Shown here piece after piece: positions 1,643-6,301 of a stretch of DNA of 6,414 nucleotides (its first letter is position 1; each line of letters starts with the position of its first letter). A program made the translations under genes and the position numbers. This stretch comes from Syntrophorhabdus sp. (lineage in GTDB: Bacteria > Desulfobacterota > BSN033 > UBA1163), in NCBI GenBank assembly GCA_020724025.1, contig DYHU01000024.1, forward strand, positions 15,327 to 21,740, written 5' to 3'. The notes below the pieces were generated by a model, which did no database searches, was not told where the DNA came from, and saw nothing but the letters and a program-made list of their open reading frames with translations.

Positions 1643-1658
1643 TGGCACTGAAATTGCT
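1643..1658 (+). promoter_or_regulatory. Sigma-54 (RpoN) promoter of the riboswitch unit
   Basis: TGGCAC-TGAAA-TTGCT matches the consensus TGGCACG-N4-TTGCW except for the base after CAC. GG (1644-1645) and GC (1656-1657) are separated by exactly 10 bp as required. Transcription should begin near 1668, a little upstream of the riboswitch aptamer, so transcript start and RNA element fit each other. The activator is unknown. Confidence 0.85.
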
Positions 1659-1682
1659 CTATAATTCTTAAAAATTAAATAT

Positions 1683-1820
1683 GCCGATAAAGCCAAACTC
1701 CGAGTAATCGGAGGACGCCAGTCCCGACATTATCTGTCGGGAGGGCCCCCTGTTCCAAAGATTGAGCAGGGGGGAAAGCCACGGATCCCATTTTTAAGGG
1801 ATGGCCGGGTTGCCGAAGCA
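1683..1820 (+). promoter_or_regulatory. GEMM-I cyclic dinucleotide riboswitch with an internal double-hairpin insertion
   Basis: The conserved GEMM-I pieces occur in order: AAAGCCAAAC (1689-1698), a 6-bp hairpin with a GUAA (GNRA) tetraloop (1698-1713), GGACGC (1713-1718), AAAGCCACGG (1775-1784), a second stem AUCCC/GGGAU (1785-1789/1798-1802), and GGCCGGGTTGCCGAAGC (1803-1819). In the canonical aptamer GACGC runs straight into AAAGCC. Here 56 nt (1719-1774) separate them, forming two stable hairpins (1722-1742 and 1746-1773). The family binds c-di-GMP, or cAMP-GMP in Geobacter-type variants. By my alignment the selectivity base (position 20 of the Vc2 aptamer) is G1692, which would favour c-di-GMP, but the inserted element makes this uncertain. 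An intrinsic terminator follows as expression platform. Family identity is firm; whether it still binds ligand is not known. Confidence 0.88.
1722..1773 (+). other. Two inserted hairpins within the riboswitch junction
   Basis: Hairpin A pairs TCCCGACA (1722-1729) with TGTCGGGA (1735-1742), 8 perfect bp around a 5-nt loop. Hairpin B pairs CCCCCTGTTC (1746-1755) with GAGCAGGGGG (1764-1773), 10 bp with one G-U and an 8-nt loop. Only three G lie between them, so they could stack. They fill almost the whole stretch between the two conserved aptamer halves. Confidence 0.8.
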
Positions 1821-1834
1821 AAGACCGGATTTAT

Positions 1835-1865
1835 ACCCGTGGCGCAACTCTACCACGGGTTTTTT
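1835..1865 (+). terminator. Riboswitch-linked intrinsic terminator (expression platform)
   Basis: ACCCGTGG (1835-1842) pairs perfectly with CCACGGGT (1853-1860) around a 10-nt loop, followed by a run of T to 1865. It lies about 16 nt after the last conserved aptamer base and before a small ORF, so it is the expected control point. The left arm can also pair with aptamer bases 1778-1784 (GCCACGG with CCGTGGC, 7 bp), which would give a competing antiterminator. Confidence 0.88.
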
Positions 1866-1901
1866 ATTGATTCAAAACCGTATTAAAAAGACGAGGAAAA
1901 T

Positions 1902-2024
1902 ATGAAATTACTATTGACAGCAATGATCTCCCTCTCATTCGTTTTGGGAATTGGGATGATCGGGCTAACCTTCTTTCTTGGAAAGATAGCTTTAGCCTAT
2001 GCCGTAAGAGACCGGAATCTTTAA
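1902..2024 (+). CDS. 40-aa riboswitch-controlled small membrane protein (unrecognised)
   Basis: ATG at 1902, 37 nt after the terminator U-tract, opens a 40-residue frame ending in TAA at 2022-2024. GAGGAAAA before the ATG supplies a plausible ribosome site. The protein starts MKLLLTAMISLSFVLG, is almost wholly hydrophobic to about residue 34 with glycines at 16, 18, 21 and 27, and ends in a charged AVRDRNL tail. It is most likely a single-span inner-membrane peptide with the charged end in the cytoplasm; a cleaved export signal is an alternative. It is the first gene after the RpoN promoter, riboswitch and terminator, so it is the direct target of cyclic dinucleotide control. I recognise no family. 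A type IV pilin follows 256 nt downstream from its own promoter, which suggests a role in the same surface programme. Confidence 0.75.
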   Translation: MKLLLTAMISLSFVLGIGMIGLTFFLGKIALAYAVRDRNL

Positions 2025-2280: not shown

Positions 2281-2715
2281 ATGATGAAAGGTAAAAGAGG
2301 ATTTACACTGATTGAATTGTTAATTGTGATAGCGATTATTGGGGTCCTTGCCGCCATCGCCATCCCGATGTATAGATCTCACACAACCAAGGCAAGAATG
2401 TCCGAAGTGGTCAATGCTCTCGGTCATCTTGCAAAGTCTGTGGGTCTGTATCAGGAAGAGGCAGGGGCAGCAGTCTGGCCTGATTGTCCGGATATGGCGG
2501 CCATTCAGACAAGCCTGGGGGTTGGGTTAAGTAGTCTCAGGATCAGTGATGCCAGAATAGATCAGGCAACCAGAACTATTGAGGTTACTCTCAATAACAT
2601 TGGTGTAGAGGTTGATGGCCGAACCCTGGTTCTCAGTGGCAACCAAAATGGCGATGGTTCAATTGCGTGGCAATGGGGCGGCACAGTCCCACAGGCTTAT
2701 ATGCCAAAAAGGTAA
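2281..2715 (+). CDS. pilA: Type IV pilin major-subunit-like protein
   Basis: The 144-residue protein has a type III (prepilin) signal: leader MMKGKRG, cleavage before Phe8, then [14 protein letters not shown] with Glu at mature position 5, the residue needed for methylation and assembly. The hydrophobic N-terminal helix runs to AIAIPMYRS and is followed by a globular domain of about 110 residues. The ending [15 protein letters not shown] resembles the D-region of Neisseria/Pseudomonas-type pilins (PF00114), but the usual Cys pair is missing; the only Cys is in WPDCPD. Such subunits are processed by PilD in the inner membrane and polymerised into pili for motility, adhesion or electron transfer. 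The frame extends to an ATG at 2167, but that region holds the promoter, and the leader peptide fixes the start at 2281 (or 2284). No pil assembly gene is nearby, so a minor pilin or pseudopilin remains possible. Confidence 0.9.
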
Positions 2716-2915: not shown

Positions 2916-2989
2916 ACGCCTTCAAAAATTTTGAGATATTTAATTTACTATTCTTTGCACATAAAGTGTGGAGGACATTAAATTTTTTC

Positions 2990-3017
2990 TTGACAAAAAT
3001 ATGTTTCTATATATAAA
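2990..3017 (+). promoter_or_regulatory. Sigma-70 promoter for the tctCBA operon
   Basis: TTGACA (2990-2995) and TATAAA (3012-3017) are separated by 16 bp, with the alternative ATAAAT at 17 bp. Transcription should begin near 3024, giving a 5' leader of about 175 nt before tctC. It is the only strong promoter seen between the pilin and the transporter genes. Confidence 0.75.
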
Positions 3018-3025
3018 TATAGAAA
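3004..3025. promoter_or_regulatory. Dyad centred on the -10 element, likely repressor operator
   Basis: TTTCTATA (3004-3011) and TATAGAAA (3018-3025) are perfect 8-bp inverted arms around the 6-bp TATAAA of the -10. A protein bound here would block RNA polymerase. The GntR-family regulator at the end of the operon is the natural candidate, though this assignment is inference and the AT-rich context makes chance palindromes more likely. Confidence 0.5.
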
Positions 3026-3030
3026 TTATC

Positions 3031-3049
3031 AATGATAATCCTTCTCATG
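3031..3049. promoter_or_regulatory. Fur-like box just downstream of the tctC transcription start
   Basis: AATGATAATCCTTCTCATG matches the symmetrical Fur pattern AATGATAATCATTATCATT at 16 of 19 positions. A second GATAAT-type dyad, ATTATC-AAT-GATAAT (3025-3039), overlaps it. The position at about +8 to +26 would suit repression. The site is seen; iron control is inferred. Confidence 0.5.
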
Positions 3050-3109
3050 ACTGGTTAAAAAGTGTTGCAATTCATTGGAGATCGTCTTTAAATCAAATAT
3101 CTTCAATAT

Positions 3110-3172
3110 GGGGAATCGGTGGGTGGCTGCTCCAGTAGAATGAATTTTTATATGGGAAGCCATCCACTCCCC
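3110..3172 (+). other. Long hairpin in the tctC leader
   Basis: Bases 3118-3128 pair with 3158-3168 over 11 bp, including two G-U pairs. After a small bulge, GGGG (3110-3113) pairs with CCCC (3169-3172). The apical loop is AT-rich and about 29 nt long. The hairpin ends 12 nt before the ribosome site and leaves it free, so mRNA stabilisation is as likely as regulation. Confidence 0.5.
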
Positions 3173-3198: not shown

Positions 3199-4170
3199 AT
3201 GATAGCTTTTAGAAAATGGTGTTTTATGATTTGCATCGCAATGGTTTTCGTTATTTCAGGTATCTGCCCTGGATTAACCCAGGAGATCAAGGGCCCCATT
3301 AAGATCATCGTGCCCTACGCGGCCGGGGGCAGTTCGGATATTGTGGCTCGACTTATTGCGGACAAAATGAAAGACCTCCTGGGCCAGGCGGTCATTGTTG
3401 AGAACAAACCAGGCGCTGGTGGCCGAATCGGCGCTGAATATGCCAAGGGCCAACCGGGTGATGGGAGCTCCATGCTGGTTATGAATCCCGCTCTGTTTGT
3501 TGTGAGTCCATTGGTTTATTCCAAATTACCCTACGACCCGGACAACGATTTCAAGCCCGTATCCCAAATCCAAGTCTATCAGTTCATCCTCTCTGTCCCG
3601 GCAAGTTCTCCTATTAAGGATGTGAAAGACCTGATCGATTGGATAAAGAAGAATCCGAAACAGGCCAACTACGGTTCCCCGGCTACAGGGAGCCTCCCCC
3701 ACTTCTTCGGTTTAATGATCGGTAAATATGCCGGGGTTGAAATGGTCCATGTGTCTTACAATGGATCAGGCCCTCTTATCACTGCCTTGATCGGTGGTCA
3801 AATTCCAATGGGTGTGGATACTTACGATGCCCAGTCAGCACATCATCCTGATAAAATCCGGATTCTGGCCACTGCTGGAGCTTCCCGCAAGCACCCCAAT
3901 ATCCCAACTTTTAAGGAGTTGGGATACAAGGATATTGAAGGGGCAGGCTGGAATGGGATCATGGTTCCCTCCAAGACACCCCAGGCGGTCATTGACAAGC
4001 TGAACCAGGCAATCGTCAAGGCTGTCAAAATGCCGGATGTGACGCTGAAACTCCAACAGCTTGGGGCTGATGTGAGCGGGACCACAGCAGAAGAATTCGC
4101 CGGAATCATCAAGCAAGATCGCGAAAAATGGGGGCCCATCATCAAGGCATCAGGATTCAAAGCTGAGTGA
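3199..4170 (+). CDS. tctC: TctC/Bug-family periplasmic substrate-binding protein of a tripartite tricarboxylate transporter
   Basis: The 323-residue protein is normal for the family. A Sec signal peptide covers about residues 1-28 (positively charged start, hydrophobic CFMICIAMVFVISG, then the mature protein at about QEIKG). Bug-family hallmarks follow: IVPYAAGGSSDIVAR (37-51), a ligand-binding loop with the conserved Asp, and VENKPGAGG (67-75), then the two-domain venus-flytrap fold to a C-terminal EKWGPIIKASGFK. It captures a carboxylate in the periplasm and delivers it to TctAB; the exact ligand (citrate, tartrate, aromatic acid or other) cannot be read from sequence. AAGGAGG 7 nt before the ATG fixes the start. 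It is first in the operon tctC-tctB-tctA, which suits the high level needed for a binding protein. A Cys in the signal region lacks a proper lipobox, so it is probably soluble rather than a lipoprotein. Confidence 0.95.
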   Translation: MIAFRKWCFMICIAMVFVISGICPGLTQEIKGPIKIIVPYAAGGSSDIVARLIADKMKDLLGQAVIVENKPGAGGRIGAEYAKGQPGDGSSMLVMNPALFVVSPLVYSKLPYDPDNDFKPVSQIQVYQFILSVPASSPIKDVKDLIDWIKKNPKQANYGSPATGSLPHFFGLMIGKYAGVEMVHVSYNGSGPLITALIGGQIPMGVDTYDAQSAHHPDKIRILATAGASRKHPNIPTFKELGYKDIEGAGWNGIMVPSKTPQAVIDKLNQAIVKAVKMPDVTLKLQQLGADVSGTTAEEFAGIIKQDREKWGPIIKASGFKAE

Positions 4171-4212
4171 TCTGACCCTGTGATCGCCCAAACCGTTGCC
4201 CTAGTTCGTTAT

Positions 4213-4241
4213 GTCGGTCCAAGGTTATCCTTTGGGCCGAC
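4213..4241 (+). terminator. Stem-loop after tctC, partial terminator or mRNA-stabilising hairpin
   Basis: GTCGGTCCAAGG (4213-4224) pairs with the segment ending at 4241 over 12 bp, with two wobble pairs and a 5-nt loop. Only an interrupted T-rich run (ATTTATTTT) follows, so termination would be incomplete. Such elements between a binding-protein gene and its membrane subunits typically give more binding protein than permease. Confidence 0.6.
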
Positions 4242-4301
4242 ACCATTTATTTTCCCGCCCACCTCATATCAATCCACAGAGACCAATGGATGGGGGTTGT
4301 G

Positions 4302-4781
4302 ATGCACATCAGAAACACTAAAGATTTAAACGCCGGTCTTATATTTATGCTATTTGGTATAGCCGCAATGGTTTTTGCCAGAAGTTACCAAATCGGCACA
4401 GCGGCAAAGATGGGATCCGGATACTTTCCTTTCATCCTTGGTTTCATGCTTACAGTGTTAGGGTTTGTGATTTCGATAAGGAGTCTCTCCGCAGGAAGAG
4501 GGGTAAGAAGGGCAGTGTCCTTTCGGATTAGGCCGGTTGTCCTCGTGCTTTCTTCTGTTGTCCTCTTCGGGCTGCTCCTTCGGCCACTTGGTCTCTTACT
4601 TTCTACAGTTATTCTTATCATTCTATCAAGCAGGGCGAGTGACGAGCATAAGACAAAGGAAGCCATCCTGAATGCCTTCGTGCTGCTCGCCATCGTTTTA
4701 ATCATCTTTGTTTACTTCCTCAGATTCCAGATACCCCTTTTGCCTTCATTTCTGACCGGCCTAACCTCAATACGAGGATAG
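4302..4781 (+). CDS. tctB: TctB-family small membrane subunit of the tripartite tricarboxylate transporter
   Basis: A 159-residue membrane protein with four predicted spans: about residues 11-28, 41-63, 76-107 (possibly two short spans) and 120-147. The opening RNTKDLNAGLIFMLFG and the motif KMGSGYFPFILG after the first span are typical of TctB, the poorly conserved small subunit that pairs with TctA in the inner membrane. I start at the ATG at 4302 because GGGGG lies 5-6 nt upstream and family members begin with a similar short charged segment; an in-frame ATG at 4290 would add four residues but has a weaker ribosome site. It follows tctC by about 130 nt including a hairpin, and its stop is 5 nt before tctA, so coupling with tctA is tight. 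Confidence 0.9.
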   Translation: MHIRNTKDLNAGLIFMLFGIAAMVFARSYQIGTAAKMGSGYFPFILGFMLTVLGFVISIRSLSAGRGVRRAVSFRIRPVVLVLSSVVLFGLLLRPLGLLLSTVILIILSSRASDEHKTKEAILNAFVLLAIVLIIFVYFLRFQIPLLPSFLTGLTSIRG

Positions 4782-4786
4782 ACGAT

Positions 4787-6301
4787 ATGGATCTCTTTTC
4801 CAATCTGGCGCTCGGTTTTCAAACGGTATTCTGTCCGCAGAACCTTCTCTACTGTTTCCTCGGGACGTTGATCGGGACGCTCATTGGCGTGCTACCGGGG
4901 ATTGGACCCGTTCAGACAATTGCCATCCTCCTCCCCGCAACCTTTGCTTTACCTCCTGTTACGGCTTTGATTATGCTCGCTGGTATCTACTACGGGGCTC
5001 AATATGGCGGGTCTACCACATCCATTTTAGTGAATGTGCCAGGAGAGGCCTCTTCGGTCGTGACCTGCCTGGACGGCTATCAGATGGCCCTTCAGGGTCG
5101 AGCAGGGGCTGCCCTCACGATCGCAGCGCTCGGCTCTTTTGTTGCAGGTTCATTCGCCACACTCCTTCTTGCCGTCTTAGCCATCCCTTTGTCGGAACTT
5201 GCTTTCAAATTCGGACCGGCGGAGTACTTCTCACTGATGGTCTTTGGATTAATCGGTTCCATTGTGTTTGCTTCGGGATCGGTGATCAAAGCCGTGGGGA
5301 TGGTTGTGCTTGGTCTGCTCCTTGGGGTGGTGGGCACGGACATTACGAGCGGCACTCAGCGCTTCTCTTTCGGCATCCCCGAACTGGCCGATGGCATCGG
5401 ATTTGTCCCTCTTGCCATGGGCCTTTTCGGTATATCCGAGATCATCAAGAGCCTTGAACGAAGAGAAAAGCGTGAGATTCTCAAAAGTAAAATAATGGGG
5501 TTTTGGATGTCCAAAAAGGAGATCAAGGCGGCTGCACCCGCTGTGGTTCGTGGAACGCTCACCGGATCCCTGTTGGGAATTCTGCCAGGCGGGGGCGCCA
5601 TCCTCGCTTCATTTATCTCCTATATGCTGGAGAAGAAGATCTCCCGTGACCCTGGAAGTTTTGGTAAAGGCAACATCCGTGGTGTTGCATCTCCAGAGTC
5701 GGCGAACAACGCGGCTTCACAAACCTGCTTCGTACCCCTCCTCACACTCGGGATACCGCCCAATGTCATCTTAGCAATGATGGCTGGCGCAATGATCATT
5801 CACGGCATTCAACCAGGACCCCGGGTCATCAGCAGCAACCCCTCACTCTTCTGGGGTGTTATCGTATCTATGTGGGTCGGCAACGTGATGTTGGTAATCT
5901 TGAACTTGCCGTTGATCCGGATATGGGTGAAACTCCTCTCTGTTCCCTACCGTCTCCTCTACCCTGCCATCCTGCTCTTTTGCTGTATCGGCATCTATAG
6001 CGTTAACAATAATACCTTTGACATCGGGTTAACAGCGCTCTTCGGGCTTCTGGGTTACCTTTTCGCAAAACTTAAATGTGAGCCGGCACCGTTAATCCTG
6101 GGCTTTGTTTTGGGACCGATGATGGAAGAGAATTTGCGGCGAGGCATGCTCCTCTCACGGGGCGATCCTTCGGTCTTTTTCGCCCGTCCGTTGTCTCTTC
6201 TGTTCTTGCTGATGGCCCTTGCCATGTTAGTCGTTATTATCCTCCCGGCCATCCGTCGGAAAAGGGAGGACGCCTTCCACGAGGAAGGGGAGAAAGGGTA
6301 A
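4787..6301 (+). CDS. tctA: TctA-family large permease subunit of the tripartite tricarboxylate transporter
   Basis: The 504-residue protein has full family length and about ten to twelve membrane spans in two homologous halves. The first half has LIGVLPGIGP (32-41) and YYGAQYGGSTTSILVNVPGE (68-87); the second repeats it as LLGILPGGGA (262-271), then GVASPESANNAA (299-310) and LLTLGIPPN (318-326). These are the signature TctA motifs, probably lining the substrate path. It imports the TctC-bound carboxylate using an ion gradient. A hydrophilic loop rich in Lys, Arg and Glu (223-246) separates the halves and should be cytoplasmic; a charged tail (RRKREDAFHEEGEKG) ends the protein. GAGGA lies about 9 nt before the ATG. 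No frameshift or missing motif is seen. Confidence 0.96.
   Translation: MDLFSNLALGFQTVFCPQNLLYCFLGTLIGTLIGVLPGIGPVQTIAILLPATFALPPVTALIMLAGIYYGAQYGGSTTSILVNVPGEASSVVTCLDGYQMALQGRAGAALTIAALGSFVAGSFATLLLAVLAIPLSELAFKFGPAEYFSLMVFGLIGSIVFASGSVIKAVGMVVLGLLLGVVGTDITSGTQRFSFGIPELADGIGFVPLAMGLFGISEIIKSLERREKREILKSKIMGFWMSKKEIKAAAPAVVRGTLTGSLLGILPGGGAILASFISYMLEKKISRDPGSFGKGNIRGVASPESANNAASQTCFVPLLTLGIPPNVILAMMAGAMIIHGIQPGPRVISSNPSLFWGVIVSMWVGNVMLVILNLPLIRIWVKLLSVPYRLLYPAILLFCCIGIYSVNNNTFDIGLTALFGLLGYLFAKLKCEPAPLILGFVLGPMMEENLRRGMLLSRGDPSVFFARPLSLLFLLMALAMLVVIILPAIRRKREDAFHEEGEKG

Follow-up and report, generated by a model that had tools for sequence, protein, structure and literature searches.

The window analysed here, a stretch of 6,414 nucleotides from Syntrophorhabdus sp., encodes a variant form of the known c-di-GMP-I (GEMM-I) riboswitch, in which two hairpins (A and B) are inserted at the floor of the ligand pocket. 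The RNA probably works as a c-di-GMP-I riboswitch that turns a type IV pilin transcript off, with the insert playing a structural or kinetic role instead of providing a new ligand site. An earlier sequence-only reading had called the RNA a GEMM-I riboswitch with a 56-nt double-hairpin insertion, and both the Rfam match to RF01051 and the two strong stems bear this out. Searches of the open-licence PMC literature brought up no description of such an insertion.

The aptamer and its inserted double hairpin

Like the c-di-GMP-I aptamers of RF01051 (Vc2, Cd1), the RNA in the window has the core bases, a GNRA loop on P2, P3, the floor pairs and the interhelical C-G pair (Table 1). It departs from them in the two hairpins, 56 nt in all, that part base 45 from base 46, in the four-way junction that these add to the three-way junction, and in a flipped pair 21-46. 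The Rfam alignment holds 68 bases at a place where the model has 12. The c-di-GMP-I-GGC model (RF03167) spans the same insert with a score similar to that of RF01051 (39.2 bits), but under its cut-off of 59. The aptamer stretch folds better than 200 of 200 shuffled sequences (z = -4.5).

Table 1. Features of the riboswitch, its leader and the genes that follow, in window coordinates
Feature	Position	Strand	Basis
Sigma-54-like promoter, TGGCAC-N5-TTGC	1643..1657	+	Read in sequence; kept in four relatives
c-di-GMP-I (GEMM-I) aptamer, insert included	1682..1817	+	RF01051, 38.9 bits, cut-off 35
G20, C21, C22 equivalents	1692..1694	+	Rfam alignment; 21/46 covariation
Partners: C1693 with G1774; C1694 with G1717 or G1773		+	Rfam alignment; 21/46 covariation
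P2 hairpin, GUAA tetraloop	1698..1713	+	Pair probability 0.99
GACG: C1716 = C44, pairs with G1804 (interhelical); G1717 = G45	1714..1717	+	Sequence, alignment
Inserted hairpin A	1718..1745	+	Covariation; missing from relatives' matching locus
Inserted hairpin B	1746..1773	+	Covariation; missing from relatives' matching locus
G1774 = base 46, pairs with C1693; A1775 = A47	1774..1775	+	Empty-site alignment
P3	1777..1811	+	Fold pair list; P3 covariation
P3 strand GCCACGG, common to antiterminator	1778..1784	+	
C92 equivalent	1813	+	Rfam alignment; contact role from PMC4744006
Intrinsic terminator	1835..1866	+	Fold; kept in four relatives
40-aa ORF, small hydrophobic protein	1902..2024	+	Relatives at same place in L099, L082, L058, L069; distant relative in L012
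Type IV pilin	2284..2715	+	Pfam N_methyl and Pilin above cut-off

We take the Vc2 numbering to map onto the window as G20 = G1692, 21 = C1693, C22 = C1694, C44 = C1716, G45 = G1717, 46 = G1774, A47 = A1775, G83 = G1804 and C92 = C1813. PMC4744006 describes G20, A47 and C92 as contacting the ligand and the interhelical C-G pair as universal among GEMM RNAs. By alignment, the window keeps all three contact equivalents (G1692, A1775 and C1813) as well as the interhelical pair C44-G83 (C1716 with G1804). Riboswitches for 3',3'-cGAMP (GEMM-Ib) belong to the same fold family but have an A at position 20, where the window has G1692, and membership of that class was therefore rejected. The change G20A is tied to 3',3'-cGAMP riboswitches in PMC6274999. 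A tandem riboswitch, with a second aptamer in the leader or the insert, and a terminator inside the insert were both set aside: in a search of positions 1600-1920 with an E limit of 1, the only matches listed besides the c-di-GMP family were anti-hemB and P11, far under their cut-offs.

The insert lies between G45 and base 46 and separates floor pair 22-45 from floor pair 21-46. Its inner stems form with mean pair probabilities of 0.98 (A) and 0.99 (B), and the hairpins abut each other and both floor pairs with zero unpaired bases, giving a gap-free four-way junction. A shift of the junction by one pair is possible, so that the bounds of the insert are equally 1718-1773 (with C1694-G1717 and C1746-G1773) or 1717-1772 (with G1717-C1746 and C1694-G1773), and C1693-G1774 is possible beside them. 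The energy model favours the second form (-73.5 versus -67.7 kcal/mol). In the ligand-free model the pairs 1693-1774 and C1694-G1717 have probabilities of only 0.018 and 0.007, and the floor pairs therefore rest on comparison with relatives rather than on folding energies. The last base of the GACG segment is G1717 and the first base of AAAGCC is A1775; in four relatives the matching locus has a plain aptamer with the sequence GGACG-GAAAGCC, which makes G1774, and not C1718, base 46. The sequence-only reading was thus right about the length of 56 nt but had placed C1718 as the base before the insert. Other natural four-way junctions that leave no base unpaired, such as that of the hairpin ribozyme, can likewise promote the docking of helices side by side; the junction in the window differs in that it is added to an aptamer which also occurs in a plain form.

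The canonical architecture of the class, with bases 45 and 46 adjacent, is interrupted in the window by these 56 nt, which makes the RNA a variant while the features of the class are retained. The low Rfam score (38.9 bits against a cut-off of 35) and the unusual junction might suggest that the aptamer has decayed or switched ligand and has stopped sensing c-di-GMP. We regard this as very improbable, since none of the contact bases, P2, P3, the antiterminator or the terminator is damaged and many loci share the layout. The earlier view, that the switch is not broken but has evolved an additional domain, agrees with the homologues and the covariation in both hairpins described below.

Covariation and distribution among relatives

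A fixed-pattern scan of the genome collection, whose narrow pattern means that phyla without a match may still carry the insert, returned 16 stretches; 10 had the same structure by eye and 6 looked like chance. The 10 were split between Syntrophaceae or other Deltaproteobacteria (5) and Omnitrophota (5). The window and four of these stretches served to build a model, R1. In the order around genome G001 this model matched 16 of 17 genomes, and 15 insertion loci were recognized in 11 of the 17, or 16 loci of this Syntrophales type with the window included. Among Omnitrophota, 190 of 285 genomes matched, plain aptamers counted in. A structural parser, run on the window plus 208 loci, gave 95 hits, of which 28 were dropped and 67 kept; its 57 Omnitrophota hits, a count that leaves out 9 deltaproteobacterial hits and locus L109, all have the gap-free two-hairpin junction. 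The 64 gap-free parser members were selected for being gap-free, and shuffled inserts gave an equally gap-free hairpin pair in 677 of 12,800 cases. The homologue search thus places the insertion in 16 Syntrophales-type loci and 57 Omnitrophota parser hits.

Base pairing in the insert is conserved through sequence change. The 16 Syntrophales-type rows, fitted to the structure of R1, pair in 94.4% of cells (87.2% when shuffled), with two-sided changes in 17 of 39 pairs, five in each of hairpins A and B. In 68 matches from 66 Omnitrophota loci, also fitted to the R1 structure, 93.3% of cells pair versus 64.6% shuffled, 690 cells versus 202 are changed on both sides, and every one of the 19 modelled pairs of A and B shows two-sided change; this set, checked by eye in part, includes one plain aptamer (L014, 2844-2937). 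Pair 22-45 is broken in 25 of the 68 rows, which we attribute to the slid form. In the parser set, both floor pairs and pairs 1 to 3 of either hairpin were required by the parser and cannot be counted as covariation. Pairs 4 to 6, which it did not demand one by one, form in hairpins A and B in 45-54 of 54-57 sequences against 23-28 when shuffled. Covariation in the 16-row and 68-row sets indicates that the stems of A and B are under selection, and together with the empty sites described below it rules out a chance origin of the double hairpin.

Pair 21-46 also covaries. Among 82 plain aptamers read without constraint at these positions, 52 have C-G, 30 have G-C and none has anything else, which supports the proposed pairing of C1693, as base 21, with G1774. 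The suggestion that the flip to C-G is tied to the insertion did not hold, since four empty-site relatives have C-G without an insert and the Omnitrophota inserts mostly go with G-C (56 of 57, the parser having demanded a Watson-Crick pair). The flipped pair is a trait of the lineage, shared by plain aptamers. Likewise, the choice of the ligand-specificity base 20 and the graft appear uncoupled: five Omnitrophota aptamers (L250, L252, L263, L269 and L264) have at position 20 the A linked to 3',3'-cGAMP, and L250 combines it with the double hairpin.

The two groups differ in how far the hairpins vary. G45 stands ahead of the insert in 30 of the 57 Omnitrophota hits and behind it in 27, so the one-pair slide of the junction is also an evolutionary variable there. 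Hairpin lengths range from 12 to 42 nt (A) and 14 to 47 nt (B) with variable sequence and loops, no loop of either hairpin recurring in more than 4 of the 57, and in Syntrophales the sequence of hairpin B is recurrent. This recurrence, and an insert at the pocket floor kept in many loci of two phyla, would suit a double hairpin that serves as a second input, a protein, RNA or small-molecule site acting through the shared junction. The variability of the Omnitrophota hairpins speaks against it, as does the lack of any other RNA family above cut-off in the window or the 16 insertion loci, and we consider such a second input unlikely. The conserved equivalents of G20, A47, C92 and C44-G83, with the wide variation of the Omnitrophota hairpin sequences, give no pointer to a new ligand either, contrary to the earlier idea that the variant may bind a different one.

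A sample of 35 Omnitrophota genomes yielded 31 R1 matches, spread over 18 of the genomes. Among the 30 matches listed, 10 (8 genomes) had the double hairpin at the floor, 17 were plain, 1 (L257) had a double hairpin in P2 and 2 were unreadable; as R1 derives from insertion members, this sample may overstate the share of insertions. In L257 (1510-1650) the double hairpin sits within the 5' strand of P2, after the fourth pair, and the floor is plain. In the phylum around G001, 99 of 345 genomes matched, and 9 long matches that were read comprised 7 plain junctions, one double hairpin (L246) and one single-hairpin insert at the same junction (L135). Bacillota (92 of 249 genomes) were rejected as a source of further examples, 12 long matches read among the matches listed being without a junction insert (11 judged by pattern, L238 by eye). 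Pseudomonadota had 7 matches in 4 of 249 genomes, none longer than 97 nt; viral contigs gave no exact pattern match and plasmids no match.

The RF01051 model passes its cut-off in the window, at 3 of the 6 insertion places from a set of nine genomes and in 4 of the 16 insertion loci (in L001 its match starts inside the insert), and the objection that the canonical model already holds many such inserts is therefore only partly excluded.

Other elaborations were seen along the way. In L014 a plain c-di-GMP-I aptamer (2844-2937) stands directly ahead of a double-hairpin aptamer (2967-3120), forming a natural tandem. In four loci with the insert (L051, L052, L055 and L008), P3 is extended by several hairpins missing from related riboswitches. 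In L056, L064, L065, L066, L090 and the plain L089, a long segment follows CACG and interrupts P3. It begins in all of them with CCTG(C/T)GTGCC, and several copies resume later with CACGGGTCC; this segment looks like a mobile or repeated element.

Empty sites and the history of the insert

The order of riboswitch and small ORF is kept in four other genomes (L099, L082, L058 and L069), three of which have the pilin (82-92% identical) within the stretch examined. Their riboswitches have an identical P2, the junction GGACGGAAAGCC and the same terminator, and the 56 bases are exactly absent; in L082 the junction is plain and P3 carries a long multi-hairpin extension instead. The exact absence marks the segment as a module that can be gained or lost. 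The most parsimonious history is a gain on the branch that leads to the window, judged on a weak tree of five (supports of 53 and 91). In locus L012, which carries the insert, the leader is related and a distantly related small ORF (41% over 34 aa) stands ahead of a different gene; the insertion may instead be old and have been lost several times.

The window insert is identical at 48 of 56 aligned positions to that of L055, a non-matching locus, and the upstream 70 bases of the window agree with those of L099 at 62 of 70 positions and with those of L055 at 45 of 63 aligned. These identities suggest that the insert may be a module passing between riboswitch copies. A query with the insert against 7 genomes hit riboswitches that carry the insertion, with E values of 1.5e-6 or lower, and no copy outside riboswitch loci at E <0.09. 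A neutral or selfish graft, in which the junction merely tolerates a gap-free hairpin pair spread by recombination among riboswitch copies, would account for the exact empty sites, the likeness to L055 and the similar double hairpin inside P2 of L257. This explanation seems doubtful, however, since covariation places the stems under selection and the query of the seven genomes gave no copy elsewhere at that limit. It is conceivable, and we offer it tentatively, that gap-free hairpin pairs form a graftable four-way-junction module that slots between stacked riboswitch pairs, leaves the host helix stacked and is gained, lost and exchanged between copies in Omnitrophota and Syntrophales, tuning c-di-GMP switches or adding an input to them.

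Leader, downstream genes and proposed switching

The sigma-54-like motif ahead of the aptamer, read against the GG/GC spacing rule of sigma-54 promoters, is kept at the matching locus in the four relatives, where L058 reads TGGCAT, and a strict form stands upstream in 11 of 16 insertion members. Downstream, the 5' arm of the terminator (CCGUGGC, 1837-1843) is complementary to the GCCACGG strand of P3. The best fold of 1681-1868 combines P3 with the terminator (-79.3 kcal/mol), only 0.6 kcal/mol better than the forced antiterminator (-78.7); in the slightly longer stretch 1670-1870 the best fold is the antiterminator. Of the 16 insertion loci, 15 have an antiterminator complement downstream and the remaining one was unreadable. 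The complement is strong in some, such as L005, L052 and L055, where 0 of 300 shuffles reach it, and in others no better than shuffles; the 7-bp match of the window is reached by 29 of 300 and the match of L064 by 200 of 300. Among ten downstream proteins from insertion loci, hand-chosen and several of them for a prepilin-like start, five score above the Pfam N_methyl cut-off and a sixth just under it. The window also holds, on the minus strand at 168-578, an ORF that matches PF18894, a putative phage metallopeptidase domain, and, downstream of the pilin at 3199-6301, genes for a tripartite tricarboxylate transporter (TctC, TctB and TctA).

We propose that c-di-GMP binding would stabilize P3 and so keep GCCACGG from the antiterminator; the terminator would then form and the genes would be silenced. 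This predicted OFF-switch logic resembles that of Cd1 as described in PMC9262584. Because the junction has no unpaired base, P2 could stay stacked on the floor pair while hairpins A and B stack on each other, an arrangement that would leave the pocket intact. The insert may help to hold the floor pair and the docking of P2 with P3, a structural role suggested by the gap-free junction, and with it the polymerase would have 56 nt more to transcribe after P2 before it reaches the switching strand. According to PMC9262584, longer transcription before the decision point favours capture of the ligand, and on this argument the insert may also act kinetically. A structural or kinetic role is the most likely one for the insert, ahead of a new ligand site, although we count against a functional graft that the four relatives do without it at the matching locus.

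The binding core of this riboswitch thus tolerates a large graft at the floor of its pocket, with base pairing kept under selection in two phyla. The matching locus offers both natural forms, grafted and plain, as ready-made controls for the effects of the graft on affinity, docking and switching speed. The variant further suggests that standard annotation overlooks some c-di-GMP switches.
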